Source: Candidatus Marinarcus aquaticus (GTDB taxonomy: Bacteria; Campylobacterota; Campylobacteria; Campylobacterales; Arcobacteraceae). Taken from it: a stretch of 64,000 bases of DNA. The stretch is from positions 124,001 through 188,000 of the forward strand of contig NZ_PDKN01000001.1 in assembly GCF_004116335.1 (NCBI RefSeq). The letters are read 5' to 3'. Positions 21,456 to 43,287 of this stretch are shown piece after piece (the stretch's first letter is position 1; each line of letters starts with the position of its first letter). A program made the translations under genes and the position numbers. The notes below the pieces were generated by a model that was given only the letters and a program-made list of their open reading frames with translations, searched no databases and was not told where the DNA came from.

Positions 21456-23609
21456 ATGAACCGTCAAATTTATGTAAAAAGTATTGCCAATAATCGCGTA
21501 CGTTTAAAGTCTGAGCTTTTTTGCACACAACATAATCTTGAGTTATTGGAAAAAGAGTTTCAAGATATTTTTACTTCGTTTAGAACCAATCTTTCATGCA
21601 AATCGATTATTTTTACCTACTCTTTAAATACAACCTTAGAAAATATTTTAAACAAAATGGAACGTCTGTTTCATATCACACTCTCTGTTCCTGCAAGCAA
21701 TGTTTTGTGTGAAAACAAAAGTTGCAGCAGTTGCAGCCTGAAAAAACATGATGCCGTTTCATGGAAAAGAAAACTTATTGAATTTGGCTTGTTAACGGGG
21801 TATGCTCTTTATATTTTTATAGGCGAGAGTTTTTTAGGTGTAAGTATTGCTGCAACACCATTGAGTCTGGTGGCATTGGTCTCACTGGTTGCCGCCATTC
21901 CTTTATTAAAAGAGTCATGGCAAGAGATGAAACACAAACAGTTTACGCTTCATACGTTTATGAGTGGTACACTGCTTTTAGCTATATTTTTAGGAGAAGC
22001 AACGGCTGCCTTTGAAATCATCTACATCTTACGTGGTGGCATGCTTTTAGAGGAGTATATTGCCAATCGTTCACGTGAAGAGATACAAAATTTAGTAGAA
22101 CTGGATATTCAAAAAGTCTATGTGCTTATTGATGAAGTGGAAGTAGAAATCGATATGCATACACTCAAAGAGGGTGATATTGTTGTAAGTAGAAGTGGTG
22201 AAAAAATCCCTGTGGATGGTATCATTATCCAAGGCAATGCAGAGATCGATGAAGCCATTATCAATGGTCGCAGTGAACCTACATTTAAACAAGAAAATGA
22301 AGAGGTTTTTGCTGGAACAGTGTGTGAAAGAGGGCGTATTTATATTGAAGTTTCGGCTTTGGGTAATGAAACCTACATCTCTCGAACCATGAGAGAAGTG
22401 GAGTATTCTCTTATGCAAAAATCACCCAGTGAATTAGAAGCAGACCGATTAGCAAATCGACTGCTTAAACTGGGGACACTTTTAACTGTAGGAACTTTTT
22501 TTATAACAGGTTCATTCACAGCAGCTTTTTCTACCATGATTGTCATGTCGTGTCCATGCGCTACTGTTTTAGCTGCATCTACAGCTGTCAGTGGTGGGAT
22601 TGCTAATGCTGCTAAGCAAGGTATTTTAATCAAAGGGGGCGATGCCTTAGAGAATGTGAGTAAAAGTGAAGTTTTTTGTTTTGATAAAACAGGAACACTC
22701 ACAACGGGTCGTCCAGTTATAACGGATATTGTCAGTTTCAATGGTTCAGATGAAAACAGAGTGTTAGAGTATGCTGCTATGGCAGAATATCGAAATTCAC
22801 ACCCCATAGCAAAAGCGATTGTGGCACAAGCTAAAGATAAAGGTATGACATTTGAACACACTTTAGAAAGTGAAATCATTCCTGGATTTGGCGTTAAAAG
22901 TACCTATAATAGTGAGCGTATTTTAGTAGGTAATAAAGCGTTACTTCACCGTTTTAAAGTTGCGACCAAAGAGTACAGTAAAACGGTCTCTGAACTTTTA
23001 GGTAGTGGAAAAACGGTGGTGTATGTGGTTAAAGGTGAAACCATTTTAGGACTGCTTGCTTTAACGCATGAGGTTCGAAAAGGCACCAAAGAGATGATTC
23101 AACACTTAAGAGATAAAGGAGTAAAACACATTGTACTTCTAACAGGGGATGAGGTACAAGTGGCCAACAGTTTTGCTTTTGATTTTGGTTTTGATGAAGT
23201 CTTTGCCAATCAAACACCACAAGGAAAAGCTGAAGCGATTATGCAATTAAAAAAAGAGTATGACAAAGTGGTCATGGTTGGGGATGGTGTAAATGATACG
23301 TTTGCCATGAGTAAAGCAGATGTGGCCATCTCATTTGCTGCAGGTGGAAGTGAAGCAGCGATTGCCGTTTCAGATATTGCAGTGACACACTCTCACCCTG
23401 AAGATGTAGTGAATTTATATGATATAAGTAAACGAAGCTTGAATGTAGTGAATCAAAACTACTACATTGGTACGGGTACAAATTTAATAGGGGTAGGACT
23501 TTCTGCAGTTGGAAAATTAACTCCGGTTGGTGCAGGCTTGATTCATATTGGACATACTCTAGGAATTATGTTAAACTCTTCTAGACTGGCTATTGATACT
23601 AATTCTTGA
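21456..23609 (+). CDS. P1B-type ATPase with CPC motif but altered actuator loop
   Basis: The 717-residue protein has a divergent HMA-like domain (1-75) without CxxC and a Cys-rich linker (CENKSCSSC, 85-93). Hydrophobic helices precede the actuator domain. The metal motif is CPC (366-368). Phosphorylation is at Asp410 in DKTGTLTTG; SHPIA, LLTGDE and GDGVND are intact. The actuator TGES motif, whose Glu drives dephosphorylation, is replaced by NGRS (270-273; Arg272). It may be slowed, regulatory or paired with the second ATPase at 25746. It opens a tightly packed operon. CPC pumps usually move Cu+, Zn2+ or similar ions; the substrate here is uncertain. Confidence 0.88.
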   Translation: MNRQIYVKSIANNRVRLKSELFCTQHNLELLEKEFQDIFTSFRTNLSCKSIIFTYSLNTTLENILNKMERLFHITLSVPASNVLCENKSCSSCSLKKHDAVSWKRKLIEFGLLTGYALYIFIGESFLGVSIAATPLSLVALVSLVAAIPLLKESWQEMKHKQFTLHTFMSGTLLLAIFLGEATAAFEIIYILRGGMLLEEYIANRSREEIQNLVELDIQKVYVLIDEVEVEIDMHTLKEGDIVVSRSGEKIPVDGIIIQGNAEIDEAIINGRSEPTFKQENEEVFAGTVCERGRIYIEVSALGNETYISRTMREVEYSLMQKSPSELEADRLANRLLKLGTLLTVGTFFITGSFTAAFSTMIVMSCPCATVLAASTAVSGGIANAAKQGILIKGGDALENVSKSEVFCFDKTGTLTTGRPVITDIVSFNGSDENRVLEYAAMAEYRNSHPIAKAIVAQAKDKGMTFEHTLESEIIPGFGVKSTYNSERILVGNKALLHRFKVATKEYSKTVSELLGSGKTVVYVVKGETILGLLALTHEVRKGTKEMIQHLRDKGVKHIVLLTGDEVQVANSFAFDFGFDEVFANQTPQGKAEAIMQLKKEYDKVVMVGDGVNDTFAMSKADVAISFAAGGSEAAIAVSDIAVTHSHPEDVVNLYDISKRSLNVVNQNYYIGTGTNLIGVGLSAVGKLTPVGAGLIHIGHTLGIMLNSSRLAIDTNS

Positions 23610-23673
23610 TTTATTTTAAGGTTAAGTTAAAGTGGGTTTTTGAATAATCATTAAAATCAAAAGGATACAGTAA

Positions 23674-23988
23674 GTGATTACGGTTGATAAAATTATAGAA
23701 ATCAGTTCTTACCTTACACTTATTCACCATACAAAAGGGCGAATACGTGTGAGAGTAAATCCAAAAATAAAAGAACAAAGTGAAAATATCACATTACAAG
23801 ATATTGAGCAAATTCCTCAAAAGATTGATGGAATTAAAAAAGTTAAAATCAATAAGATAGTAGGTTCTATTACCATAGAGTATGACAACACAATTTTCCC
23901 TGATTATTTATGGAAAAACCTACTCAATCAAGAGAACGTTGAAGAGATAGCAGAGATTTTAAACAGACTTTCAAAAGAGGTAGAGTAA
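23674..23988 (+). CDS. Small HMA-like domain protein
   Basis: The 104-residue protein begins with GTG after an AAAGGAT ribosome site. It has the βαββαβ pattern of HMA_2-type domains: HTKGRIRVRVNPK, then IDGIKKVKINKIVGSITIEYDN. It lacks the CxxC metal-binding pair of true metallochaperones. Similar patterns occur at the N-termini of both ATPases in the operon. It overlaps the ferritin-like gene by 1 bp. A role as adaptor or chaperone for the ATPases is inferred from the shared fold. Confidence 0.7.
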   Translation: MITVDKIIEISSYLTLIHHTKGRIRVRVNPKIKEQSENITLQDIEQIPQKIDGIKKVKINKIVGSITIEYDNTIFPDYLWKNLLNQENVEEIAEILNRLSKEVE

Positions 23989-24734
23989 TGGAAAACACGA
24001 CAAACCAAGAGGTGTTAAAAAACTTTGATGATGAGGTGCTTAAAACATTTAAAGTGGATGTAAACAGTGAAATTCCTGTACTGCATCAAGTTTTGAGGAT
24101 TGCTGTTTATGATGAGTATCATGCGTATGAAACTTATAAAAAAGTATTAGAAACGTTTGGAGACACACCACCATTTACCAATATCATAGAAGCCGAAGTA
24201 AGACACTATCAAGCACTTTTACATCTGCTTGAAAAGTATCAAGTTCCTGCTCCTTTAAATGATTGGGAATCTAAAATTGAAGCGCCCAACTCTGTTTTAG
24301 AAGCGTGCGAAATAGCAGTGGCTGCAGAGATTGATAATATTCAAATGTACGACAATCTGATTGATTATGTTCAAGAGTATCCCGATGTGCTTGATACGAT
24401 GTACAAACTTCAAGCAGCTTCATACAATAATCACTTGCCAGCATTTAGAAAAGCAGTGGCACAACACAGCCAGTTAGAAAATGTGAACCTCAATGATATT
24501 CATCAACAATACTCTGCACATAATCTTGATGATGCCATTGGCAAAATGGATGAAATTGGACAGATGGTTCAAAAGTTTTCTGCTGGGGATGTATCACAAG
24601 AAGATTTAATGAAAATGTTAAGCAACACTAACCTTTCATTTATAGGTGGGGCACTTTTAGGTGCTGTAGGAGCAGGGGTGCTTTCACAAATGATTAAAGA
24701 GAATGAACATAAATCTACACAAGAGGAGGATTAA
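23988..24734 (+). CDS. Membrane-tailed ferritin-like protein
   Basis: In the 248-residue protein, residues ~25-160 form a four-helix ferritin-like domain with candidate di-iron ligands in DEYHAYETY, EAEVRHYQALL (ExxH) and AAEIDNIQMY; the last helix has NNHLPAF. After a linker, about 215-236 (FIGGALLGAVGAGVLSQMI) is a glycine-rich membrane segment, so the domain is probably tethered. It resembles DUF2202-type ferritin-like proteins. It starts 1 bp inside the preceding gene and sits between the two ATPases, suggesting iron binding or oxidation at a membrane. Confidence 0.78.
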   Translation: MENTTNQEVLKNFDDEVLKTFKVDVNSEIPVLHQVLRIAVYDEYHAYETYKKVLETFGDTPPFTNIIEAEVRHYQALLHLLEKYQVPAPLNDWESKIEAPNSVLEACEIAVAAEIDNIQMYDNLIDYVQEYPDVLDTMYKLQAASYNNHLPAFRKAVAQHSQLENVNLNDIHQQYSAHNLDDAIGKMDEIGQMVQKFSAGDVSQEDLMKMLSNTNLSFIGGALLGAVGAGVLSQMIKENEHKSTQEED

Positions 24735-24736
24735 GT

Positions 24737-24829
24737 ATGCCCATTATCCCTTTTTCGTTAGGAGCCGTAGTAGGAGCAACACTCATGGTGATGCTTAAAA
24801 CAACCAAACAACATAATAAGGAGAAGTAA
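24737..24829 (+). CDS. 30-residue single-span membrane protein
   Basis: A small frame encodes 30 residues. It consists of a hydrophobic, glycine-containing helix (PFSLGAVVGATLMVML) and a basic tail (KTTKQHNKEK). It starts 2 bp after the ferritin-like gene, with GAGGA just ahead, and its TAA overlaps the next ATG (TAATG). The tight packing and similarity to the glycine-zipper helices of its neighbours support it as a real gene. No family assigned. Confidence 0.6.
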   Translation: MPIIPFSLGAVVGATLMVMLKTTKQHNKEK

Positions 24830-25080
24830 TGTTACCGTTTATTGCAGGAGTAGCCGCTGGAGCAATCGCAGTTGTGGCTTATAACAACAATGATAAAATC
24901 AAAAAAAGTGTTAATGAAGGTACTAAAAAAGCAAAAACATTGGCCGAAAGTGGATTAGAAAAAAGCAAAGAGCTTGCAAAAGATGTCAAAGCAACCGTAA
25001 GTGAAAAAGTGGACTCCATCAAATCAAAAAAGTCTGAAACCAAAACTGAAACCAAAGGAGAAGTCAGTGATGCCAAGTAA
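24829..25080 (+). CDS. Membrane-anchored lysine-rich helical protein (YtxH-like)
   Basis: The 83-residue protein has a glycine/alanine membrane helix (LPFIAGVAAGAIAVVAY) followed by a long, highly charged amphipathic helix rich in Lys and Glu. This is the layout of YtxH-like or apolipoprotein-like membrane-surface proteins. It overlaps its upstream neighbour by 1 bp and the next gene by 11 bp. A structural or membrane-shaping role on an internal compartment is possible; no function is established. Confidence 0.7.
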   Translation: MLPFIAGVAAGAIAVVAYNNNDKIKKSVNEGTKKAKTLAESGLEKSKELAKDVKATVSEKVDSIKSKKSETKTETKGEVSDAK

Positions 25081-25414
25081 TTTAGCAATCAATACAGGTG
25101 CACCCAGAAACGTAACAGGTCACGTAGTAAGTGGTGCATTAGCAGCAGGAGCCTTAGCAGCAGCGCTCAACTACAATAAATATAAAAAGGGTGAAATAGC
25201 AAAACAAGAGGCGATCAGCAACTCTTTAAAACTCTCTGCTCAAGGTGGTGTGGCAACAGGCAGTGCCATTGCTGCAGCAAACTACATGGGTAAAGGAAAC
25301 ATCATGGGAGTACTTACAGCTATTTCTGTTGGTGCCATGGGAGTATATGCGGTAGAGAAAGTGAGTGAAAAACTTGAAGAGAGACAACGATTAGAAAAAA
25401 GAAAAGAGGCATAA
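25070..25414 (+). CDS. Glycine-zipper membrane protein
   Basis: The protein is 114 residues from ATG 25070, with a GGAGAAG ribosome site; an upstream in-frame start at 25001 would lie well inside the previous gene. It has two Gly/Ala-rich hydrophobic segments (VVSGALAAGALAAALNY and GVATGSAIAAANYMGKGNIMGVLTAISVGAMGVYA) and a charged C-terminal helix. Such glycine-zipper hairpins pack tightly in membranes. It is part of the run of small membrane proteins between the two P-type ATPases. Confidence 0.72.
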   Translation: MPSNLAINTGAPRNVTGHVVSGALAAGALAAALNYNKYKKGEIAKQEAISNSLKLSAQGGVATGSAIAAANYMGKGNIMGVLTAISVGAMGVYAVEKVSEKLEERQRLEKRKEA

Positions 25415-25415
25415 A

Positions 25416-25736
25416 ATGCATAAGAATACGATTCAAAATAATCCATACATCAATACTCAAAACCAAGGGTTAAATGATTTGAATTTGGCCAATCAAAATC
25501 CATATATTAACAACGCACCAGCTGATGGTTTATTGGGTAATTTTGATACGGGTAAGTTTTTATTAGGGGCTGCTATTGGTGCTTTGGGTGCTTATGTGTT
25601 GACCAATGAAAATGCACAAAAAGCAATTTTTAAAACCGTGGCAAAAGGAAGTGCGCTTTTTACAGCTGGAATTGAAGAGATGAAAGAGCGATTTGAAGAT
25701 GCAAAAGCTGAAATGGAAGCTGAACCAGTTGAGTAA
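25416..25736 (+). CDS. Glycine-zipper membrane protein with Asn-rich N-terminus
   Basis: The 106-residue protein has an Asn/Gln-rich N-terminal 35 residues with two NPYIN repeats, one glycine-zipper helix (FLLGAAIGALGAYVL, about 47-61), and then an acidic amphipathic helix (FTAGIEEMKERFEDAKAEME). It starts 1 bp after the preceding gene. The duplicated NPYIN tag could be a short protein-interaction motif. Function unknown; context as for its neighbours. Confidence 0.7.
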   Translation: MHKNTIQNNPYINTQNQGLNDLNLANQNPYINNAPADGLLGNFDTGKFLLGAAIGALGAYVLTNENAQKAIFKTVAKGSALFTAGIEEMKERFEDAKAEMEAEPVE

Positions 25737-25745
25737 GAGAGTCTC

Positions 25746-27863
25746 ATGAGTTGTAACATCAAACTGGTACATAAAACGAAAAAACGTTATCGATTTTATT
25801 GTCAAGAGTTAAAAGGAACAGAGTATAATAGCTCCTCTTTAATTCACAATTTAAAATCAGTAGACGGTATCAACGCAGTACGTATCAATCAAAAAATTGG
25901 CACCATCATATTTGAACACGAGGGCGTCTCTTTAAGTGTAATAGAAGAGATGCTTGCTTCTTTGGATATGAATAAATATAAAACATGCCAAACATTTATA
26001 AATGATTGTATGGATTGTATCAGTGATGAAGAACCCAGTCTTTTTGGTGTAACACGTGCAGGAACGGCATTGGTCGCTGAACGCATGGTCTCCAATGACA
26101 CAGCGAAGATGTTTATTACTTCTTTGGCTGCTAAACCCTTGCTCATTGAAGGGGTTAAAGAGCTCTTTTCTGAAGGTTTAACCTCAAAAGTACTTGAAGC
26201 CACAGCTGTGGGTGTGAGTATTGCACGAAAAGATTATCTGGCTGCGAATAGTACGAATACCATGTTGGAATTGGGTGAATACATTGAAGAGACAACCGTA
26301 CACAAAAGTGATGATCTTATTAAAGAGTTGGCCAAACCAAACGTGCAAAAAGCATGGATAGAAGTTGAAGAGAAGGGCAAAGCCGTACAAAAATTGGTCA
26401 ATACAGCTGAGATAAAAGTGGGTGATATTGTAATTGTAGGTGCGGGTGATACCATCGCTATTGATGGGCATGTACTTTCAGGAAGTGCTTCAGTGAACCA
26501 AGTCTCAATGACAGGTGAAAGTGAACCTGTGGCAAAACAACGAGGTGATAAGGTGATTTCAGGAACGGTTGTGGAAGATGGCAGACTGAAAATCTGGGCA
26601 GAGTATGTGGGAGAAGATACTGCAACGGCACGTATTAAAAACTACATTGCCACTTCACTGAATGAGAAATCAGCCATTGGCTTAAAAGCCACAAAATTGG
26701 CTGATAAATTAGTACCCGTTACCTTAGGTTTAGCAGGTGTCTCTTATTTGATTAATCGAGATTTTGAAAGCGTGGCAGCGGTTCTGCAAGCTGATTATTC
26801 GTGTGCCTTGAAACTGGCAACACCGGTTGCATTTAAATCTTCGATTTCAAAAGCAGGTAAAAATGGTATCATGATAAAAGGAGCCAAAGCGATTGAAGCA
26901 TTAAACAATGTAGATACGTTTGTTTTTGACAAAACAGGTACCCTTACTTATGGTGACTTGGAAGTAGAATCCATTAACTCTTTTTTACCTAAATGGAAAG
27001 AAGATGATATTTTAAATCTTACAGCCAGTGCTGAAGAACACTACTTTCATCCCGTTGCAGAAGCGGTTGTAAAAGCTGCACGTGAAAAAGGCTTTGTTCA
27101 TATGCATCATGAAGAAGTAGAGTTTATTGTGGCTCATGGAGTTAAAACCATCGTCAATGGTAAAGAAGTAGTTATTGGAAGTCGACACTTTTTAGAAGAT
27201 GATGAAAACATTGATTTTTCTAAACATGAAAAAAAGATAGAGAAGTGTCTGCTTGAAGGTCGAACACTGCTTTATGTGGGCTATGATAAAAAATTACTTG
27301 GAACCATTGGCATGCGAGACCGAGTGCGGAAAAATGCAAAAACAACGCTACAAAAACTTAAAAGCATGGGTGTAAAAGAGATTGTGATGCTCACGGGTGA
27401 CATTCAAGAAAAAGCAGACTCTTTGGCCAAAGAATTAGGTGTAGATACGGTCTATGCCAATATGAAACCTACTCAAAAAGCAGAGATTATAAAGTCATTG
27501 AAAGACAAAGGTGCTAAAGTGGCTTTTGTGGGTGATGGAATCAATGATGCCCCAGCATTAATGAGTGCTGATGTGGGTATCAGTATGAGTAAAGGGGCTG
27601 ATATTGCTAAAGCCACAGCCGATATTGGTCTGTTAAAAGATGATATTGATGCGGTGGCGCAAGCAAAAGAGTTGGCCAATAAAACGATGAAACTCATCAA
27701 TAATAACTTCAATGCAACGGTGGGGGTCAACAGTTTGATTTTAACGGGAGCAACCGTGGGATTGTTCAGTCCTATTACCACAGCAGTGTTGCATAATGGT
27801 ACGACCATTGGATTGCTTTTTAATTCAATGAAAGGTGTCAATATAACTAAGAGGGTTCAATAA
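25746..27863 (+). CDS. P1B-type ATPase with non-CPC (SCA) membrane motif, FezB-like candidate
   Basis: In the 705-residue protein, residues 1-75 form an HMA-like domain without CxxC. Hydrophobic segments ahead of the actuator are weak compared with classical P1B pumps. The actuator TGES (256-259) is intact. The metal motif is Ser-Cys-Ala (352-354, in DYSCALKLATP) where CPC is usual. Phosphorylation is at Asp395 in DKTGTLT; FHPVAEA, LTGD and GDGINDAPALMSADVGISM are conserved. A divergent motif plus ferritin-like and small membrane neighbours suits the P1B-6 group to which the ferrosome ATPase FezB belongs. I recall that group name but cannot check the motif. Confidence 0.82.
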   Translation: MSCNIKLVHKTKKRYRFYCQELKGTEYNSSSLIHNLKSVDGINAVRINQKIGTIIFEHEGVSLSVIEEMLASLDMNKYKTCQTFINDCMDCISDEEPSLFGVTRAGTALVAERMVSNDTAKMFITSLAAKPLLIEGVKELFSEGLTSKVLEATAVGVSIARKDYLAANSTNTMLELGEYIEETTVHKSDDLIKELAKPNVQKAWIEVEEKGKAVQKLVNTAEIKVGDIVIVGAGDTIAIDGHVLSGSASVNQVSMTGESEPVAKQRGDKVISGTVVEDGRLKIWAEYVGEDTATARIKNYIATSLNEKSAIGLKATKLADKLVPVTLGLAGVSYLINRDFESVAAVLQADYSCALKLATPVAFKSSISKAGKNGIMIKGAKAIEALNNVDTFVFDKTGTLTYGDLEVESINSFLPKWKEDDILNLTASAEEHYFHPVAEAVVKAAREKGFVHMHHEEVEFIVAHGVKTIVNGKEVVIGSRHFLEDDENIDFSKHEKKIEKCLLEGRTLLYVGYDKKLLGTIGMRDRVRKNAKTTLQKLKSMGVKEIVMLTGDIQEKADSLAKELGVDTVYANMKPTQKAEIIKSLKDKGAKVAFVGDGINDAPALMSADVGISMSKGADIAKATADIGLLKDDIDAVAQAKELANKTMKLINNNFNATVGVNSLILTGATVGLFSPITTAVLHNGTTIGLLFNSMKGVNITKRVQ

Positions 27864-27866
27864 ATA

Positions 27867-28505
27867 ATGGAAAACGAAGCAAAAAAAATCACCATTCCTA
27901 CACTGGATTTGGATACAAAAAAAGAGATTGCAAAGATAGGAATGACCGCAACCATGGGGATTACTGTGGCAACCTCTTTTTATATGAAAAATAAGTTAAT
28001 GAAACGATTACACGTTGTAGCTGGTGCTGCGTTGGTTGGTTTTTCATATTGGCACCATACCTTATATCAACCTGCAAAAAAAGTTAAAAATATTTCAATG
28101 GTTTTAAAAGAAGAAGTTCTTGAGGAGTTTAATGAAAAGAATTTGGCCATCTCATTAAACAACTTTTTTGTTGAAGTTGCTATAACAGGCAAATTAACTC
28201 ATAAAGAGTTTGCACTATTTCAAGAAAAAATTGAGTTGTTAATGGAGACTTATAAAGTACCATCCATGAATATTTTACTTGATATTACTCAAATAGAAGG
28301 TATTGAGTTAAAAGCGTTATGGGATGATTTAATATTTACCATGAATCATATAGATGAATTAAAGAAAATTGCTATTGTTGGAAACAATAAAGTTGAAGAG
28401 TACACTGTACATTTAGCAGATAAATTATTCTCTTTTGATTTAGAATATTTTGAAGAGTATATAAAGGCAAAACAATGGCTTTTAGAGGGGAGACCTAGCA
28501 AGTAG
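27867..28505 (+). CDS. Membrane-anchored SpoIIAA-like (STAS-related) protein
   Basis: In the 212-residue protein, residues ~24-62 hold one or two hydrophobic helices (IGMTATMGITVATSFYMK and VVAGAALVGFSYWHH). The C-terminal ~110 residues follow the SpoIIAA-like/STAS pattern: AISLNNFFVEVAITGKLTHKEFALFQEKIE, MNILLDITQIEGIELKALWDDL, KKIAIVGNNK. SpoIIAA-like domains bind lipids or partner proteins in other contexts. It is the last gene of the operon, starting 3 bp after the second ATPase. It may organise membranes or regulate the ATPase, by inference only. Confidence 0.7.
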   Translation: MENEAKKITIPTLDLDTKKEIAKIGMTATMGITVATSFYMKNKLMKRLHVVAGAALVGFSYWHHTLYQPAKKVKNISMVLKEEVLEEFNEKNLAISLNNFFVEVAITGKLTHKEFALFQEKIELLMETYKVPSMNILLDITQIEGIELKALWDDLIFTMNHIDELKKIAIVGNNKVEEYTVHLADKLFSFDLEYFEEYIKAKQWLLEGRPSK

Positions 28506-28907: not shown

Positions 28908-29705
28908 TTATTTCATTGGTTTAGCTTCGACCCAAATAACAGCATCTTGGCTGAGCTCTTTGCCTTTGTATTCTGTATCAGACCCCACTCCTAAAGCGCA
29001 AAATCCCCAAAATCCAGCTTTTGGAATTGAGAAGGTAAATTCACCATCTTTATTTGCTTTAATTCCCATTGTTACAAATGAATCTTGAGGTGCTTCGTAT
29101 TTGTTAGGTCCCATGGCATTATTTTTCATATCGGGGGTATTATTTATATACTCCACTTCTATTTCTGCAAATGGTACGGGTTTGCCATTTGATTTTACAA
29201 CACCTGTAAAACTTCCATGTTCCCAAATAGAGTAAGGTTTTGTTAAAGGAACAATTTCAGCTTTTAATCCTAATTCAGCATCCCAATCGGTTGGAGTACC
29301 CGCTACATTGATGACGGTTTTTGTAATTTGTTGGATATATATTCCTTCACCTGCTTCAAAATATGGCACGGGCTGCATAATAAATAAGTGGTCACCCATT
29401 CTTCGTGCTTTATATGATGATTCAAAAGCTTTTCCTGAGTTGTGTTTACCTTTCCAAGTAATAGGCTTTAAACTCTCTTTTAAATTTTTCTTTTTTCCTT
29501 TATTAATGACATAAAACTCTTCGACTCCAGCCATATCCATCGTATGTTCATCAGCAAATGGATGAGTAAATACATGTTTAAACTCTATTGTTTCACCTTT
29601 TGGCAATGCTGTATTGGGCGTATATACCATTTGAAAGTGTGCAAATGCCGATGTTGCTGCTATTGAAGCAGCTGCTAATGTACTGATTATTAACTTTTTT
29701 GTCAT
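28908..29705 (-). CDS. Periplasmic DUF4198-family protein of the feo locus
   Basis: The 265-residue exported protein has a signal peptide ending ATSAFAHF. It shows the DUF4198 layout: HFQMVYTPN at the mature N-terminus with an exposed His, THPFADEHTMDM, a carboxypeptidase-like β-domain (GSFTGVVKSNGKPVPFAEIEVEYIN), and the C-terminal GFWGFCALG. DUF4198 proteins accompany metal (nickel, cobalt, iron) uptake systems and are thought to bind or deliver metal in the periplasm. The position downstream of feoB suggests ferrous iron here. Confidence 0.8.
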   Translation of the reverse strand: MTKKLIISTLAAASIAATSAFAHFQMVYTPNTALPKGETIEFKHVFTHPFADEHTMDMAGVEEFYVINKGKKKNLKESLKPITWKGKHNSGKAFESSYKARRMGDHLFIMQPVPYFEAGEGIYIQQITKTVINVAGTPTDWDAELGLKAEIVPLTKPYSIWEHGSFTGVVKSNGKPVPFAEIEVEYINNTPDMKNNAMGPNKYEAPQDSFVTMGIKANKDGEFTFSIPKAGFWGFCALGVGSDTEYKGKELSQDAVIWVEAKPMK

Positions 29706-29760
29706 TTTTTTTCCTTTATGTGTATAAATGAAGTACCGTGTTAAGTGTACTTTATAGTGA

Positions 29761-30060
29761 TTACTCAGTAATTTCTGAACCTTTTACATGTACTTGGTGA
29801 CCTTCTCCTGCATCAAATACAGCACTGTATGATCCTATAGGTTTTTTAAATGTGACTTCACTGTCTTCATTCATTTTTGTTTCAAAAGTTTTTTTACCAT
29901 CTTCTAAAATATGAAATTTAACACCACTTGCACTGCTTCCATCGCTGAAACCTCCTTCGCAAGTGATGGTACCATCACCATTATCAAAACAACTCATAAT
30001 CGCTGTATGAGCAAACACAGAACTAGCTAAAAAAGCTAAACCAATTAAAATTTTTTTCAT
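29761..30060 (-). CDS. Small periplasmic protein of the feo operon
   Basis: The 99-residue exported protein has a signal peptide (MKKILIGLAFLASSVFA) and an N-terminal HTAIMSCFDNGDGTITCEGGFSDGS segment with a Cys pair and a mature N-terminal His, and ends with a DAGEGHQVHVKG motif. The His-first mature end and GEGH motif resemble small metal-uptake partner proteins found with DUF4198 genes (NikL-like). Its start overlaps feoB by 4 bp, so it is part of the operon. Metal delivery to FeoB is inferred. Confidence 0.72.
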   Translation of the reverse strand: MKKILIGLAFLASSVFAHTAIMSCFDNGDGTITCEGGFSDGSSASGVKFHILEDGKKTFETKMNEDSEVTFKKPIGSYSAVFDAGEGHQVHVKGSEITE

Positions 30061-32579
30061 CTATTTTCTCCTATATTAAAATTGTTTTCGTAAACGTTGT
30101 ATTGTCCTTTTGCTTTGGATTGTATTCCTCCTTTCCAGTTGATGTTTTTAGTTGGGAACAGACCAATAATAAGTGCTATAAGCACAACTGTTATGTAAAA
30201 ATAAATCATCGCCTCAACACCACTCCAGTTATTAAATGAACCCAAACTAAATATAACAGATGAGATGATAATTCCTAAAAATACAGGAAAAAATATAGCA
30301 AACAGCATCCATTTGTAACTGTTAGTTTGCATTTTTACTACAATCATCGTTGCAATACAAGGTGGTGTTAATATCATAAAAATGATAATAGCCACAGCAT
30401 GCAAAGGGGTATAGCCGCTGTTAAGTGCCATTGCTTCTTCTGCTCTCATATCATCTGCTTTATTATTTTCATAGATAGAACCAAGCGTTGCAACAGCGCT
30501 CTCTCTTGCAGCAAAAGAACTGAGAAAAGCAACATTGATTTTCCAGTCAAATCCTGCATAACGTGTTAGAGGTTCTATAGATCTTCCCGCCATACCTAAA
30601 AGTGAACTTTCAACTTTGTCGTTTTTCATCCCTCTTAAAATTCTTTTTCTTTGAGTGGAGAGTGTTCTTAACGCTTTGTTGACTTTTTTGGCTTCTTTGT
30701 CTCTTTTGGGTTTAATAAATTTAAAAGATGAGGGATTGATTTCACGATACTCATTATCCACATCTTCAGCTCCTTCACGAGAGCTTGTAACCATTCTTTT
30801 AGCTCTGTATCCATCATAATAGTTTAATAGTGTCGATACCTTTTGTTTGGTATCTACTTCGTTATAATAGCTACTGGATTTCACTTTTTTATCAAAAGTT
30901 TGAAGTGCTTTTGTTCCTTGTGCTTCATATACTTTCATGGCATTTTCATCAAGTCCAGGAAATTGAAGCATCGCAAATAGTACAATAGCAACTGCTAGCA
31001 CAATGGTCACAACTTTTTTAATGTATAACCATACTCTTTGAAATGCTCTGATGATAACCCCTTTAAAAGTGGGTAGATGATAAGGCGGAAGTTCCATTAA
31101 AAAAGGAGCAGTTTCTCGAGTGCTTAAAATAGTGGCGGTAATGATTCTTGCTACAATCATGGCTATAAAAAGTGTGATGGTAGAGATAAAAAACATCATA
31201 ATAGCCATATCAGGTTTGAAAAAGGCACCTAAAAGAAGAGTATAAAAAGGCACTTTCGCCAAACAATTCATGTATGGAACAGAAAGAATGGTTGCCATTC
31301 TTGCTCTGTCATCTGCAATTCCTTTGGTTGCCATTACTCCTGGTACTGCACATCCACCAACCATAGCACCTCCTAAAACAAGAGGAAGAGTTGATTGTCC
31401 ATGCAGACCAAAACGTTTGAAAACCCTGTCTAAAATAAAGGCCATTCTTGGCATATAGCCCACATCTTCCATGATGGCAATAAGTGCAAAGAGAATAAAA
31501 AAGATGGGAAGATAGTTCATGAGAGCATTTCCACTGTTGACCATCCAAATACCAAAATCGGTGATCATCGGAACATCAATAAAATCAGCAGCAGGTAAAA
31601 TATCAATAACCAAGTTTTTAAAAGCAGCTAGTATAGGCCAAGTATAATCGGTAAGTTTGTATCCACCCACAATGGAAATTTCATAAACTAAAAACATAAA
31701 AAGAATCAAAATAGGTAAAGCCAGAAATCGATTTAAAATAATCTTATCGGCCTTATCTGTTAAAGTTGCTTTTCCTAAATTTTTCTCTTTGATGGCATTG
31801 TGGTGTATTATATCTGCTGATTCATATCTGTAGGATGCCAAAAAGGATGGGGCATCTTTATCATATTTTTCATGAAATAATTTCTCTTGATTTTTGATAT
31901 ACTCATCTATATCATTGAACTCTGTTTTTAAATGGGAAATAATGGAACTGTCACCTTCTAAAGCTTTAATAGCAAGCCATCTTTTATTTAAAACAGATTG
32001 TGTACTTTCGATTTTTTCTTCAATGTTGTGAATATGAGGTTCTAACTCTTCATAGTTTATTTTAAACTCTTCATATTGGTGTGCATGAGTTACCGTATCA
32101 ACAATCCCTTTCATGATATCTTTGCCACCAATACCTTTTGAACCAGATGCTTCTATGACAGGACAGTTTAACATTTTTGATATCTTTTTAGAATCAATCT
32201 CTATACCCCTTCTTTTTGCTACATCCATCATGTTTAAGACAACAATTACAGGTATACCAATTTCTAAAAGTTGAAAAGTTAAATAGAGATTTCTTTTAAT
32301 ATTTGAAGCATCTACTATATTGACAATAACATCAGGTTTTTCATCTATAATAAACTCTTTTGCCACTCTCTCTTCTAAAGAGTATGAACTAAAAGAGTAG
32401 GTCCCGGGTAAATCAACCATTTCAATTTTGTAGTTATCATATTTAAAATAACCCACTTTTTTATCAACAGTTACTCCAGGGTAGTTTGCTATATGCTGTT
32501 CAATTCCACTTACAAGGTTAAATATTGTGGATTTACCACAATTGGGTTGACCAGCAAGAGCTACTTTAATGTGTTTCAT
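30057..32579 (-). CDS. feoB: Ferrous iron transport protein B
   Basis: The 840-residue protein has an N-terminal G domain with GQPNCGKST (10-18), YPGVTVD, DLPG (56-59) and NMMD (116-119). Two Gate-type membrane regions follow, with conserved Cys segments GGCAVPG and SVPYMNCLAKVPFYTLLLG. FeoB is the GTP-driven Fe2+ importer of the inner membrane. It is longer than the usual 700-770 residues. A charged stretch of about 110 residues (542-655) lies between membrane segments, rich in Lys/Arg near its end. It lies 1 bp after feoA under the Fur-box promoter at 35.45 kb. Confidence 0.94.
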   Translation of the reverse strand: MKHIKVALAGQPNCGKSTIFNLVSGIEQHIANYPGVTVDKKVGYFKYDNYKIEMVDLPGTYSFSSYSLEERVAKEFIIDEKPDVIVNIVDASNIKRNLYLTFQLLEIGIPVIVVLNMMDVAKRRGIEIDSKKISKMLNCPVIEASGSKGIGGKDIMKGIVDTVTHAHQYEEFKINYEELEPHIHNIEEKIESTQSVLNKRWLAIKALEGDSSIISHLKTEFNDIDEYIKNQEKLFHEKYDKDAPSFLASYRYESADIIHHNAIKEKNLGKATLTDKADKIILNRFLALPILILFMFLVYEISIVGGYKLTDYTWPILAAFKNLVIDILPAADFIDVPMITDFGIWMVNSGNALMNYLPIFFILFALIAIMEDVGYMPRMAFILDRVFKRFGLHGQSTLPLVLGGAMVGGCAVPGVMATKGIADDRARMATILSVPYMNCLAKVPFYTLLLGAFFKPDMAIMMFFISTITLFIAMIVARIITATILSTRETAPFLMELPPYHLPTFKGVIIRAFQRVWLYIKKVVTIVLAVAIVLFAMLQFPGLDENAMKVYEAQGTKALQTFDKKVKSSSYYNEVDTKQKVSTLLNYYDGYRAKRMVTSSREGAEDVDNEYREINPSSFKFIKPKRDKEAKKVNKALRTLSTQRKRILRGMKNDKVESSLLGMAGRSIEPLTRYAGFDWKINVAFLSSFAARESAVATLGSIYENNKADDMRAEEAMALNSGYTPLHAVAIIIFMILTPPCIATMIVVKMQTNSYKWMLFAIFFPVFLGIIISSVIFSLGSFNNWSGVEAMIYFYITVVLIALIIGLFPTKNINWKGGIQSKAKGQYNVYENNFNIGENR

Positions 32580-32580
32580 A

Positions 32581-32823
32581 TTATTCCTTTACATCCATCT
32601 CTATAAGAAGAGCTTCACTTTTTCTGATACTTAAGTTATAGTTATGGAGTTTTAACTCCATGGGATCAAAAAGAGGAGCTTCTCGTATAACCTCTATTTC
32701 CACATTATTCACAAACCCCATATCTAAAAGTTTTTGCAATAGTTTCCCTTTTGCATAAAGCTTGTTCACTTTTGCTTTTTCACCTTTTTCTAATGACGCC
32801 AGTGTTCTCATTTTACTGTTCAT
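32581..32823 (-). CDS. feoA: Ferrous iron transport protein A
   Basis: The 80-residue SH3-like protein carries the FeoA core: SLEKGEKAKVNKLYAKGKLLQKLLDMGFVNNVEIEVIREAPLFDPMELKLHNYNLSIRKSEA. FeoA binds FeoB and supports iron transport. It follows the ABC permease gene by 9 bp and precedes feoB by 1 bp. Confidence 0.9.
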   Translation of the reverse strand: MNSKMRTLASLEKGEKAKVNKLYAKGKLLQKLLDMGFVNNVEIEVIREAPLFDPMELKLHNYNLSIRKSEALLIEMDVKE

Positions 32824-38590: not shown

Positions 38591-38634
38591 AAGTTTCTTT
38601 AAAGTCAAATGATGTTTTAATTGCATATCTTATT

Positions 38635-38653
38635 GATAATAACAATCATAATT
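38635..38653. promoter_or_regulatory. Fur box 2 upstream of the imelysin cluster
   Basis: GATAATAACAATCATAATT matches the Fur consensus at 15 of 19 positions and ends 21 bases before the ATG. With box 1 it gives a tandem operator, consistent with tight iron repression. Confidence 0.6.
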
Positions 38654-38674
38654 ACAAAATTAAAAGGAAGAGAT

Positions 38675-40015
38675 ATGAAAAAAGTGAAGTTATTGATTTC
38701 AGGAATCAGTATAGCTACGGCATTGATAGTATCAGGTTGTGCAAAAGAGAGTGTGGATGCACCTGTTGCAAAGACATCAGATATTGTGCAAACGTATGCA
38801 AAAATTGCAACAACCAATTATAATGATGCTCTTAATGATGCTGTTAAACTACAAACAGCTGTTAATACATTTACACAAAACCCAACAGAAGAGACATTCC
38901 AAGCGGCAAAAGATGCTTGGATACATTCACGAGAATCATATGGTCAATCTGAAATTTTCAGATTATCAAATGGTCCTATTGATGCCGAAGAGAATTGGAT
39001 TTCTGAAGCATATGGCGCTTTAGAAGGACAAATCAATGCATGGCCACTTGACGAAAATATGATTGATTATACGATTGATGCAGATGGTAAAAAGACTGCA
39101 GGAAATATCATTGACACTGCAGGTGCATTTAATCCAGGTGGGGAACAAAGCACAGAGGTTGATGTAACAACCATAACCAAAGAGGCGTTAACAAACTTGA
39201 ATGAAAATGGTGGTGAAGCAAATGTAAGTACGGGTTACCATGCAATTGAATTCTTACTTTGGGGACAAGACCAAGATTACTCTAACTTCATTAAAGATCA
39301 AGTTACTTCAGGTGATTTAGTTGCAGGACAAAGACCATTAAGTGATTTTACAAGTGACGTGAATGCACCAAGAAGATTGGCATATTTAAAAGCTGTAACG
39401 GATAAGTTAGTAGAGGACTTACAAATCGTTGCTTCTGCTTGGGATAATAAAGTTGATGGAACAACAGGACTTTATAAAGCGGCGCTTTTAAATACATTAG
39501 AGGGTGAAAATGCAGATAAAAACATTGATGAAAAAACAGCAATGAAACAGATTTTTGCAGGTATGGGTGTTTTTATTAAATCAGAACTTGCAAACGAAAG
39601 AATTGCAGTTGCAGTATTAACTCCAAGTGAAGAGGACGAACATTCGTGCTTCTCTGACAACACGCATCGAGATATCGCTACAAACTACCAAGGGTTCAAA
39701 AACGTTCTTTTAGGAATCTATGAAGGTAAAAAATTAGGTAAAGCACCAATCGATGCATTGAATGAAGAGGACAAAAAACGAGTAACGACGTTAATGACTT
39801 CTATCGAAGCAAAAATTGCATCAGTGGATGAAGTGGCTCGAACTTCAAGACACTTTGACCGACAAATTATCTCAACGGATCCACAATCAAAAGTGATTGT
39901 TAAACTTAAAAATGAGATGAGAAAACTGGGTGATGAAATGGTCAATGTTGCTAAAGCAAATGGAATTGACTTAACTGTTGATGATGTAACTGACGCAGAA
40001 GAGACACAAATCTAA
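38675..40015 (+). CDS. Imelysin-family (peptidase M75-like) lipoprotein
   Basis: The protein is about 446 residues from ATG 38675 (AAAAGGA ribosome site; an upstream frame extends through the Fur box). The lipobox LIVSGC marks the lipidated Cys. Imelysin/IrpA marks are AWIHSRESYGQSEIFR…GPIDAEENW, GYHAIEFLLWGQD (GxHxxE motif) and NERIAVAV. Imelysins are iron-regulated periplasmic proteins of proposed iron-binding function. It is first in a cluster with di-haem proteins, 10 bp before the next gene. Confidence 0.85.
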   Translation: MKKVKLLISGISIATALIVSGCAKESVDAPVAKTSDIVQTYAKIATTNYNDALNDAVKLQTAVNTFTQNPTEETFQAAKDAWIHSRESYGQSEIFRLSNGPIDAEENWISEAYGALEGQINAWPLDENMIDYTIDADGKKTAGNIIDTAGAFNPGGEQSTEVDVTTITKEALTNLNENGGEANVSTGYHAIEFLLWGQDQDYSNFIKDQVTSGDLVAGQRPLSDFTSDVNAPRRLAYLKAVTDKLVEDLQIVASAWDNKVDGTTGLYKAALLNTLEGENADKNIDEKTAMKQIFAGMGVFIKSELANERIAVAVLTPSEEDEHSCFSDNTHRDIATNYQGFKNVLLGIYEGKKLGKAPIDALNEEDKKRVTTLMTSIEAKIASVDEVARTSRHFDRQIISTDPQSKVIVKLKNEMRKLGDEMVNVAKANGIDLTVDDVTDAEETQI

Positions 40016-40025
40016 AAGAGATTCG

Positions 40026-41360
40026 ATGAAATCATTCATAACAATATCAACACTCACAGCTTTATTGGCTGTGAGTGTTTTTGCCGTTCAAACAACTCAT
40101 CCTTCTAAAAAAGCTTTTACAAAACCGTATGATGGTTTAAATGATGAACAAATCGATTTGTCGATGTTGGGAAAAAGTTTTTTTAGAATTCCTTGGGTGG
40201 AAGCACCCAGCGCAACCACTGCAAGAGATGGATTGGGACCACTTTTTAATGCCAACTCCTGTATCAGCTGCCATCCCAATAATGCTTTAGGCAGTCTCTT
40301 TACTAAGGATGGCAATATCAGCAGAAGTGTGGTCGTACGTCTCTCCATTGACAGCAATAATTCACAAGAACATCAAGCGTTAATGCAACAGCAAGGTTTT
40401 GTGCCTCACCCCGTTTATGGTGCACAATTGGCAATCAATGGGGTTAAAGATGTTCCTTTTGAAGGACGACTTAAAGTTGTGTATGAACAAAAAAAAGTTG
40501 TTTATCCTGATGGAGATATGGTCTACTTAAATGTGCCTCACTACTCATTAATCGATTTAAATTACGGTGAAATTTCAAAACAGACGCATATCAGTGTACG
40601 AAAAGCACCTGCTTTGGTTGGACTGGGTTATGTCGATGCCATTTCTGATGAAGCCATTCTTGCCAATGAAGACGTGAATGATGCAAACAAGGATGGCATC
40701 TCTGGTCGAGTAAATTGGGTCTACTCTAAAGAGAAGGGTGGCTTAGCTGTAGGAAAATATACGTATAAAGCCAGCGCTCCCACAGTTAAAAATCAAATTG
40801 CCAATGCCTTTTTTAATGACATGAGTTTGACCACCTCTTTTTACGGAAAAGATAATTGCACTTCGTATCAAAAAGAGTGTTTGAACGCACCACATGGAAG
40901 AGATGAAGTGGATGTACCTGATTTACGTTTGGATGCGATTGATTTTTATCTTAAACATTTAAAAGTGCCGGTGGTTGAAAACAAAGATGCTAAAGCAGAA
41001 CAACTTTTTGAACAAATAGGGTGTACCTCATGCCACATTCCATCTTTGAGTTCATCTAAGGGCAAACCCGTTTATGTCTACAGTGATTTTTTATTGCATG
41101 ATATGGGTGAAGAGCTCAGTGATGGACGTGTAGAGTTTATGGCACAAGCAAATGAGTGGCGTACCGCTCCATTGTGGGGCATTAACAGTTATGACAAGGC
41201 CATTGGACAGAGTGCAGAGTATTTACATGATGGACGAGCAAAAAGTTTAGAAGAGGCCATTTTATGGCATGGTGGAGAGGCCTTAAATGCTAAAAAAGCA
41301 TTTATGAATTTAGCCAAACAAGACAGAGAAAAACTATTGAAGTTTTTAGGAGAATTATGA
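40026..41360 (+). CDS. Di-haem oxidoreductase (DUF1111/DHOR family)
   Basis: The 444-residue exported protein has a signal peptide ending SVFAVQ. Haem-binding CISCH (79-83) and a second CTSCH near residue 331 are seen. The family segments SFFRIPWVEAPS, DGLGPLFNANSC and WRTAPLWGI…YLHDGRAKSLEEAILWHGG are conserved. Partner genes in other bacteria pair this oxidoreductase with imelysins in iron-regulated operons. It probably oxidises or reduces a metal species in the periplasm. It overlaps the second imelysin gene by 4 bp. Confidence 0.85.
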   Translation: MKSFITISTLTALLAVSVFAVQTTHPSKKAFTKPYDGLNDEQIDLSMLGKSFFRIPWVEAPSATTARDGLGPLFNANSCISCHPNNALGSLFTKDGNISRSVVVRLSIDSNNSQEHQALMQQQGFVPHPVYGAQLAINGVKDVPFEGRLKVVYEQKKVVYPDGDMVYLNVPHYSLIDLNYGEISKQTHISVRKAPALVGLGYVDAISDEAILANEDVNDANKDGISGRVNWVYSKEKGGLAVGKYTYKASAPTVKNQIANAFFNDMSLTTSFYGKDNCTSYQKECLNAPHGRDEVDVPDLRLDAIDFYLKHLKVPVVENKDAKAEQLFEQIGCTSCHIPSLSSSKGKPVYVYSDFLLHDMGEELSDGRVEFMAQANEWRTAPLWGINSYDKAIGQSAEYLHDGRAKSLEEAILWHGGEALNAKKAFMNLAKQDREKLLKFLGEL

Positions 41361-42322
41361 GAACGCTATTCGTAGGACTGCTTTTTGTATGCTCTTTATT
41401 TGCACAAGATGCAAAACAGAACATACTCAATAAAGTATTAATCAACGACACACAAGTAACAATTGATGTAACAAAAAAGTTTATCACAGATTTAGATGAT
41501 AAGAGTGAAGAGGTTTTAAAAAAAGATTTTCAAGAGCTGATTTATAATTGGAAAAAAGTGGAAGCAGTATATGTTGCGGGGGATTTAGACAGTGACTATT
41601 TGGATTCACCACGATACATTGATGTCTATCATAACCTAAAAGAGAATCTTCATGAGCAGATGCAACGTGTGAGAGAATCCAATGACAGTTTGGCTGTTTC
41701 AATGTTTAAAAACTCATTTAAAACCATCAATGCTTTAGAGTATATTCTTTATTCAAATGAGAAAATCACCACTAAAGACAGAGCGATTTCTAAAATGATA
41801 TTGCAAAATATTCAATCTCATTTAGAAGATATCTTAGAAGTGTATACAACTAAAAACAGACAGTTTTTAGAGGATGAAACATTTACCAATGCAGCAGTGA
41901 TGAATGCTTTGGTTGGAAGTGCGTATAAACTCAAAGAGTGGAGAGTGGCTGATGTATTGGGTGCCACACTTAAATATAAAGACAATCCCAATAATAATCG
42001 AGCAGAGTACTACTTAAGTAAAAATTCGGTCTTGGCTTTAAAAGCGATTTTAAAAACACATCAAGCAATCTTAGATGCACCTGAGTATTTTGATTTTGGG
42101 GATTTATACATCAAAGACTTAACCCATGATGAAGTCCAAATTACTCGACAAATCATCAAAGATGCCTTAGATGCATTAGAAAAAATTCCCAATGATGACT
42201 TGACAAGTAAAGAGGCAAAAGAGTTCTATGTGATTGCAAATAATTTATATAACAACTACTTCATGTCGTTGATACAAGAGTTGAAAATCACATCAAAAAT
42301 TCTGGATGCTGACGGAGACTAG
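41357..42322 (+). CDS. Second, divergent imelysin-family protein
   Basis: The 321-residue exported protein has a signal peptide ending CSLFAQD and imelysin-like helices. The segment NWKKVEAVYVAGDLDSDYLDSPRYIDVYH parallels the first imelysin. The GxHxxE motif is degenerate here (TINALEYILYS), so metal binding may be lost or moved. It is translationally coupled to the di-haem oxidoreductase, 2 bp before the sterol-desaturase-like gene. Confidence 0.78.
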   Translation: MRTLFVGLLFVCSLFAQDAKQNILNKVLINDTQVTIDVTKKFITDLDDKSEEVLKKDFQELIYNWKKVEAVYVAGDLDSDYLDSPRYIDVYHNLKENLHEQMQRVRESNDSLAVSMFKNSFKTINALEYILYSNEKITTKDRAISKMILQNIQSHLEDILEVYTTKNRQFLEDETFTNAAVMNALVGSAYKLKEWRVADVLGATLKYKDNPNNNRAEYYLSKNSVLALKAILKTHQAILDAPEYFDFGDLYIKDLTHDEVQITRQIIKDALDALEKIPNDDLTSKEAKEFYVIANNLYNNYFMSLIQELKITSKILDADGD

Positions 42323-42324
42323 TC

Positions 42325-43287
42325 ATGGATTTTTCAGCATTTGAGTATTTTATTGATGCCAATAAGCGTCTTTATTTTATCTATATATTAAGTTCCATGC
42401 TTATTGCAATGGGATATTTGATGCTGAATAAAAAAGAGGCACGTGTGGTCTTAAGCTCAAAGTTGTGGCTACACGAAAGTGCCAAGTTGGACTACATCTA
42501 TTTTATTGTAAATGTCTACATCAAAATCTTTTTAATTTTTCCTTTGGTTATTGGAGCTAAAGAGGTGACGATGTGGGTGTATAAAATCTGTATTCAAAAC
42601 TTCGGTTATGTCTCTTTTGATTGGTCGTATGAAGCTGTTTTGGTGTGTTATACCTTGGCCTTGTTTATCGTCAGTGATTTTAGCCGTTATTGGGTGCATC
42701 GTTGGTTGCACACCATTCCAATTTTGTGGGAGTTTCACAAAGTACATCACAGTGCCAAGGTGTTGACACCGTTTACGTTTTATCGAGTTCATCCGGTTGA
42801 AAACTTATTGTTTGGACTGCGGTATGCTTTAAGTATTGGAGCAGTTACGGGGCTCTTTTTTTATTGGTTTGGCGCACGGTTGGACATTTACACAGTTTTT
42901 GGTGTAAATATTGTGGTGTTTGTATTTAACCTGTTGGGATCAAATTTACGACACACACATGTGAAGTTAAAGTATTTTAAAGCCGTTGAAAAGTGGTTGG
43001 TTTCCCCTTATATGCACCAAATACATCACAGTAAAAAACATTTTGATAAAAACTATGGAGGTTATCTATCACTTTGGGACAGAGTGTTTGGAAGTGTGAA
43101 GTATTCGCAAGAGGTGAAGTATTTAAAATTTGGTCTAAGAAAGGAGCAAATGGCATCGTATTCAACACTGCAAGGTTTGTTGTTTTTCCCATTTGCGAAT
43201 TTGTTGAAAAAAAGGAGAATAAGTGAGAAGTTTAAAAGTTTTAGTCGTATCTTTGTGTCTGACAAGTGCGATTCATGCGCAAGATAG
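42325..43287 (+). CDS. Sterol desaturase / fatty acid hydroxylase family membrane protein
   Basis: The 320-residue protein has several membrane helices and the di-iron His boxes HRWLH, HKVHHS and HQIHHSKKH. Related enzymes hydroxylate lipids using a non-haem di-iron site. It starts 2 bp after the second imelysin. Its end overlaps the cytochrome c peroxidase start by 65 bp, so it belongs to the same transcript. Linking a di-iron lipid enzyme to this iron cluster is unusual. Confidence 0.85.
   Translation: MDFSAFEYFIDANKRLYFIYILSSMLIAMGYLMLNKKEARVVLSSKLWLHESAKLDYIYFIVNVYIKIFLIFPLVIGAKEVTMWVYKICIQNFGYVSFDWSYEAVLVCYTLALFIVSDFSRYWVHRWLHTIPILWEFHKVHHSAKVLTPFTFYRVHPVENLLFGLRYALSIGAVTGLFFYWFGARLDIYTVFGVNIVVFVFNLLGSNLRHTHVKLKYFKAVEKWLVSPYMHQIHHSKKHFDKNYGGYLSLWDRVFGSVKYSQEVKYLKFGLRKEQMASYSTLQGLLFFPFANLLKKRRISEKFKSFSRIFVSDKCDSCAR

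Follow-up and report, generated by a model that had tools for sequence, protein, structure and literature searches.

Nine closely packed genes (g1 to g9) lie head to tail on the plus strand at positions 21456-28505 of the window, the 64,000-nucleotide stretch of Candidatus Marinarcus aquaticus DNA that was analyzed. The successive junctions from g1 to g9 measure 64, -1, 2, -1, -11, 1, 9 and 3 bases, so the statement in an earlier note on this DNA that the gaps are of 64 bp or less is correct (range, -11 to 64 bases). Its companion statement, that most of the genes overlap, does not hold: overlaps occur at three of the eight junctions, a minority. The gene inventory and domain calls of the same note were borne out: both ATPases are of the P1B type, g2 has an HMA2 domain, the ferritin-like protein ends in a membrane tail, four of the products are small membrane proteins and one is SpoIIAA-like.

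The leading gene, g1 (21456..23609), encodes ATPase 1, an accessory P1B-type enzyme of 717 amino acids with a CPC motif in TM6 and a degenerate, HMA2-like N-terminal domain. The conserved block is opened by g2 (23674..23988), which starts with GTG and specifies an HMA2-domain protein (PF19991) that matches the HMA gene in operons of Rhodopseudomonas, Azospirillum and Vibrio. It is followed by g3 (23988..24734), encoding a ferritin-like four-helix protein of the DUF2202/rubrerythrin type with a C-terminal glycine-zipper membrane tail, and then by the genes for the small membrane proteins: g4 (24737..24829), a 30-aa single-span glycine-zipper peptide; g5 (24829..25080), an 83-aa member of a conserved family with one membrane span and a charged, YtxH-like cytosolic tail; g6 (25070..25414), a MamC-family membrane protein with three predicted helices; and g7 (25416..25736), also YtxH-like, with an Asn/Pro-rich N-terminus, one GxxxG span and an EELKERxED helix, which is the most conserved of the operon's small proteins. 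The second ATPase, g8 (25746..27863), is a P1B enzyme of the FezB type, 705 amino acids long, with an N-terminal HMA2 domain and the motifs DYSCALKLATP in TM6 and HNGTT in TM8. Translation of the last gene, g9 (27867..28505), would yield a 212-aa protein in two parts: an N-terminal two-helix hairpin (27867..28103) with invariant K23, H49 and H63, which is a candidate DUF4405-like, FezC-like haem b cytochrome, and, fused to it, a SpoIIAA-like (STAS-type) domain (28104..28505; PF11964, 1e-19). Domain searches placed E1-E2_ATPase and HAD domains in both g1 and g8, and HMA_2 in g2 (5e-10) and at the N-terminus of g8 (7e-9); the N-terminus of g1 was related to the HMA2 family at 95% in a profile comparison.

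Relationship to fez operons and conservation of the block

Ferrosomes, small iron stores enclosed by a membrane, have, to our knowledge, been shown in only a few bacteria. Rhodopseudomonas palustris makes them from six fez genes (RPA2333-2338), and Shewanella putrefaciens likewise has a six-gene fez operon and ferrosomes. The window was compared with the Rhodopseudomonas locus L128, in which precisely six genes are packed together, namely HMA2 plus hairpin, HMA2, a g5-like gene, g6, g7 and a FezB-type ATPase. This locus comes from a congener of R. palustris and was used in place of the genes of R. palustris CGA009, S. putrefaciens CN-32 and D. magneticus RS-1 by name. Each Rhodopseudomonas genome with a strong match contains just one FezB-type ATPase, and so it is a short step to take RPA2333-2338 as an operon of the L128 type.

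FezB is an ATPase of the P1B-6 type with TM6 and TM8 motifs of its own. Over 671 residues, g8 shares 48% identity with the Rhodopseudomonas FezB-type ATPase, and its TM6 and TM8 motifs recur in the Rhodopseudomonas, Azospirillum and Aeromonas relatives, with which it forms one clade (support 100/100) apart from CopA and ZntA. Genes 2 to 6 of L128 each match a Campylobacterota family profile (HMA, 5e-16; g6, 1.6e-6; g7, 1.9e-14; g5 weakly), and the first gene is related through its HMA_2 domain and through the hairpin that is also found in g9. All six thus have counterparts in the window, those for g5 and the hairpin being weak matches, and in both operons the FezB-type ATPase follows HMA2, g5-like, g6 and g7 genes, and a bis-histidine hairpin is present as well. 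In the window the hairpin is encoded at the 3' end, in a gene of its own, and is joined to a SpoIIAA-like domain, whereas in Rhodopseudomonas it is joined to an N-terminal HMA2 domain; the window further differs in having the ferritin-like protein, the CPC ATPase and the 30-aa ORF. The operon is therefore very probably a fez-type (ferrosome) operon of the six-gene Rhodopseudomonas kind in a Campylobacterota form, and from this homology we infer that it serves iron storage.

The motifs of g8, its place in the FezB clade and the gene-by-gene homology with L128 all favor the ferrosome-like reading of the earlier note, which would have been refuted in part by small proteins unlike those of Fez systems; these proteins instead find matches in the six-gene Rhodopseudomonas operon. 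Its description of an expanded version is fair for this genome, given the extra ATPase, the extra 30-aa ORF and the SpoIIAA fusion. That reading is supported as to the fez-type identity; what it missed were the MamC-family membership of g6 and the FezC-like bis-histidine hairpin of g9.

The ferrosome genes of Desulfovibrio magneticus and Clostridioides difficile, as described, share the FezB-type ATPase with the window, and the candidate FezC-like cytochrome feature of the window (bis-His, DUF4405-like) would be shared with D. magneticus as well. Both operons are smaller than that of the window; the C. difficile operon has been described with FezA and FezB (PMC12574912). The fez-type operons of Azospirillum, Thauera, Azoarcus and Magnetospirillum, which are unstudied, contain the same block, with a ferritin-like gene in many of the betaproteobacterial loci; no second ATPase was seen in these operons, and their hairpin is fused to HMA2 or located elsewhere.

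Of 298 genomes of the class, 102 have a g8 relative (E <= 1e-100); they represent 20 of the 58 genera. In 78 Campylobacterota loci from such genomes, whose ORFs were searched with the window proteins, families were present as follows: g2 and g7 in all 78, g6 in 74, the N-terminal part of g9 in 73, g3 in 71 and g5 in 70; among the ORFs of these loci there was no counterpart of g4. The neighborhood analysis that the earlier note had proposed across Campylobacterota found all seven families, g2 - g3 - g5 - g6 - g7 - FezB (g8) - hairpin (g9), together in 64 of the 78 loci and in a single invariant order. Median gaps in these complete blocks are of a few bases, except ahead of the hairpin gene, where the median is 108 bases. 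Since seven families (all but g1 and g4) keep their order in so many loci, the arrangement is not a matter of chance.

Beyond the class, the TM6 region of g8 was used to scan named genomes and yielded 80 loci, mostly proteobacterial, including those of Azospirillum, Magnetospirillum, Rhodopseudomonas, Rhodoblastus, Aeromonas, Thauera and Azoarcus. Campylobacterota family profiles matched g8 in all 80, g7 in 79, g2 in 72, g6 in 66, g5 in 38 and g3 in 19. The ferritin-like protein is thus not special to the window genome. No g8 relative was found in viral contigs.

Several loci depart from the common form. Two genomes of one family (loci L068 and L069) have a shorter FezB relative of 613-617 aa without the N-terminal HMA2 domain, in a short HMA2 - g7 - ATPase cluster. 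In an Azoarcus MAG (L165:2850-5980) the g7 gene is separated from the FezB-type gene by about 3.1 kb, and the operon looks interrupted. The FezB-type genes of four genomes (G292, G152, G138 and G324) have one in-frame stop codon, and are either pseudogenes or sequencing errors. A plasmid (CP129951.1) of Arcobacter sp. DSM 115972, from chicken meat, carries a complete fez-type block and hairpin gene with a recombinase nearby, so the operon can sit on mobile DNA. A divergent FezB branch is found on Vibrio and Cereibacter plasmids (L110 and L111) together with a Pro/Gly/Met-rich protein; the TM6 motif on the Cereibacter plasmid is DYACPVK.

ATPase 1, the ferritin-like protein and the bis-histidine hairpin

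ATPase 1 is rare. It was found in 11 of the 298 class genomes; the operon is present in every one of them, immediately downstream of g1 and in the same orientation. Its CPC motif is accompanied by IHIGHT in TM8, compared with AMALSS or ADTG in CopA and ZntA, and in the tree it is a separate clade (100/100) that lies with FezB when the tree is divided at the branch (99/96) that sets CopA and ZntA apart. An ordinary Cu or Zn pump was rejected because of this separate clade and the TM8 sequence; the clustering with Cu/Zn exporters that the earlier note had considered for the second ATPase is not what the tree recovers. By sequence, g1 is a member of a distinct CPC-type clade that is neither CopA nor ZntA.

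Domain searches gave g3 a weak rubrerythrin/DUF2202 match. Its predicted structure has a four-helix core, with pLDDT above 90 over most of the core, for which the best solved match in Foldseek is MJ0754 (2e-4), followed by bacterioferritins and ferritins; the predicted fold thus agrees with the earlier description of a built-in ferritin-like protein. There is no match at the level of PF00210, and g3 was set aside as a canonical ferritin; two or three PF00210 proteins occur elsewhere in the genome. The putative metal ligands E43, E70, H73, E114 and H149 are all present in g3, with the second ExxH incomplete. Across the Campylobacterota family, E43 and E114 are nearly invariant, and E70/H73 and H149 are retained in part. 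Half of the family lacks E70/H73, and a ferroxidase role is therefore unsure. It is plausible that g3 has a redox or seeding role; for family members that have lost ligands, a structural role is just as likely.

In the g9 hairpin family, H49 and H63 are conserved without exception (74 of 74 sequences), and proteobacterial operons have this pair, with identical spacing, at the end of their first gene. Among Pfam families, DUF4405 ranked first for 22 of 27 hairpin members (best, 2.6e-4), the match of the window g9 being weak (E = 0.12), and a search of the genome with DUF4405 also returned g9 weakly. FezC is a DUF4405-like haem b cytochrome, in which the site is formed by dimerization (PMC11334425). 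Because of the invariant histidine pair, the top-ranking family and the precedent of FezC, the g9 hairpin is likely, if not proven, to be a FezC-like cytochrome. DUF4405 scored above the cut-off at three other loci of the genome; these were set aside as sites of FezC, g9 being the ferrosome-linked candidate. Fusion of the hairpin to a SpoIIAA-like domain was seen only in the window and at one other locus (L075).

MamC homology, alternative explanations and the proposed ferrosome

The NCBI model for the magnetosome protein MamC (NF038051) matches g6 over its full length with 37.4 bits (E = 2.3e-9). The equivalog cut-off of this model is 100 bits, far above the g6 score, and g6 is therefore to be regarded as a MamC-family homologue and not as MamC itself or its orthologue. 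The same model matches 17 of 40 members of the g6 family as well as the Vibrio counterpart (9e-9); alphaproteobacterial counterparts, which lack most of the loop, fall below its reach. Alignment of g6 with MamC (Mms13) extends across nearly the full length and includes the loop helix, but g6 resides in a fez-type operon. One Magnetospirillum genome (L120, G298) with true MamC also bears a fez-type operon.

It might be argued that glycine- and alanine-rich two-span membrane proteins have simply converged. The helices are of low complexity, the score falls well short of the equivalog cut-off, and in one search the MamC model weakly matched 5 of 14 control genomes. Against this, a profile of true MamC sequences, taken from Magnetospirillum genomes, was run on the 17,292 ORFs of all neighborhoods, other glycine-zipper families among them, and gave 50 matches, every one of them (50/50) a g6 protein. 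In the other direction, true MamC is recovered by a g6-family profile. Profile-profile comparison of the g6 family with MamC gave 96% probability over 92 columns at 33% identity; none of 30 MamC profiles with shuffled columns exceeded 22%, and the g5, g7 and g9 families stayed at or below 18%. The reciprocal match is specific and spans the whole domain, which makes convergence unlikely; on these profile comparisons, g6 is a specific homologue of MamC. A literature search that did not extend to the primary ferrosome papers found no published link between ferrosomes and MamC.

Two other explanations address the operon as a whole. One is a metal-efflux platform in the cell membrane, in which glycine-zipper scaffolds would cluster P1B ATPases that export a toxic metal, and no organelle would be formed. 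The PacL1-CtpC system for zinc in mycobacteria, a platform of a P1B ATPase and a small single-span partner, has the same kind of architecture (PMC9374683), and g1 has an ordinary CPC motif. The homology, however, leads to a six-gene fez-type operon and not to a PacL-type one, no PacL-family domain was matched, and one would not expect such a platform to include a FezC-like hairpin or members of the ferritin-like and MamC families. The platform is rated the least probable of the alternatives. The other accepts a compartment but not iron as its main cargo, the two ATPases of different motif suggesting copper, zinc or a mixture. ATPase 1 does represent a separate CPC clade that is always beside the operon, and sequence alone does not reveal cargo. 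Yet g8 retains the FezB motifs letter for letter, its ferritin-like and MamC-like partners point to iron, and Fur-box-like sites (at least 12/15) are enriched upstream of the operons, at 16 of 78 loci compared with about 2 expected from shuffles. The window operon is not among the 16. A cargo other than iron therefore seems improbable, if slightly less so than the efflux platform.

A bolder reading, held to be slightly more likely than not, is that a homologous membrane protein is common to ferrosomes and magnetosomes, the MamC family being ancient in fez operons and the MamC of magnetotactic bacteria related to it, and that Campylobacterota (about one third of the sampled species of the class) build ferrosomes that include a ferritin-like protein anchored in the membrane, to which some lineages add a cytochrome-STAS fusion and another P1B ATPase. 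On the fez-type reading of the operon, g8 would pump cytosolic ferrous iron into membrane vesicles, and metal handling or docking at the pump might fall to g2 and to the HMA2 domains in g1 and g8. The glycine-zipper proteins g4 to g7, including MamC-like g6, could pack in the vesicle membrane and shape either the membrane or the mineral, and the tail-anchored, ferritin-like g3 would oxidize or seed iron at the membrane. The g9 hairpin, as a FezC-like haem b cytochrome, would switch iron between Fe(II) and Fe(III) as it is loaded or released, and the SpoIIAA-like domain of g9 may be a regulatory or docking module. In the few lineages that bear it, g1 may move a second cargo, or the same metal under other control.

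With the operon present in 102 of the 298 genomes sampled, ferrosomes would be a common iron store among Campylobacterota, and many culturable species could be used for testing. The MamC-family member hints that ferrosomes and magnetosomes share parts. If this is true, one membrane-protein family ties together two iron organelles that have been studied as separate inventions, and a function is suggested for a ferrosome protein that has so far been uncharacterized. Through the bis-His hairpin, the redox step that has been proposed for ferrosomes can be tested in bacteria other than Desulfovibrio. Natural experiments on ferrosome control are provided by the fusion with SpoIIAA and by the additional ATPase. 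Specialists may find four things new: that the operon includes a MamC-family member, that the candidate cytochrome is fused to a SpoIIAA-like domain, that a CPC ATPase is linked to the operon, and how widely the operon occurs in the class.

Genes and sites near the operon

The neighbors of the operon had been described as Fur-controlled iron clusters. Iron genes are indeed nearby, as FeoAB and imelysin genes; as to Fur control, the best Fur box ahead of the operon matches at 11/15 (p about 0.1, not significant) and none upstream of feoA is significant. Scans for promoters and terminators returned sites no more frequently than in shuffled sequence. FeoAB is encoded on the minus strand (30057-32823), within a cluster that adjoins the fez-type operon (28908-32823) and in which genes for a DUF4198 protein and an exported protein of 99 aa lie downstream of FeoB and FeoA. 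Farther along, the region 38621-44359 includes two genes of the iron-regulated imelysin family, beside which are a putative di-haem oxidoreductase and a putative cytochrome c peroxidase, both named by eye.
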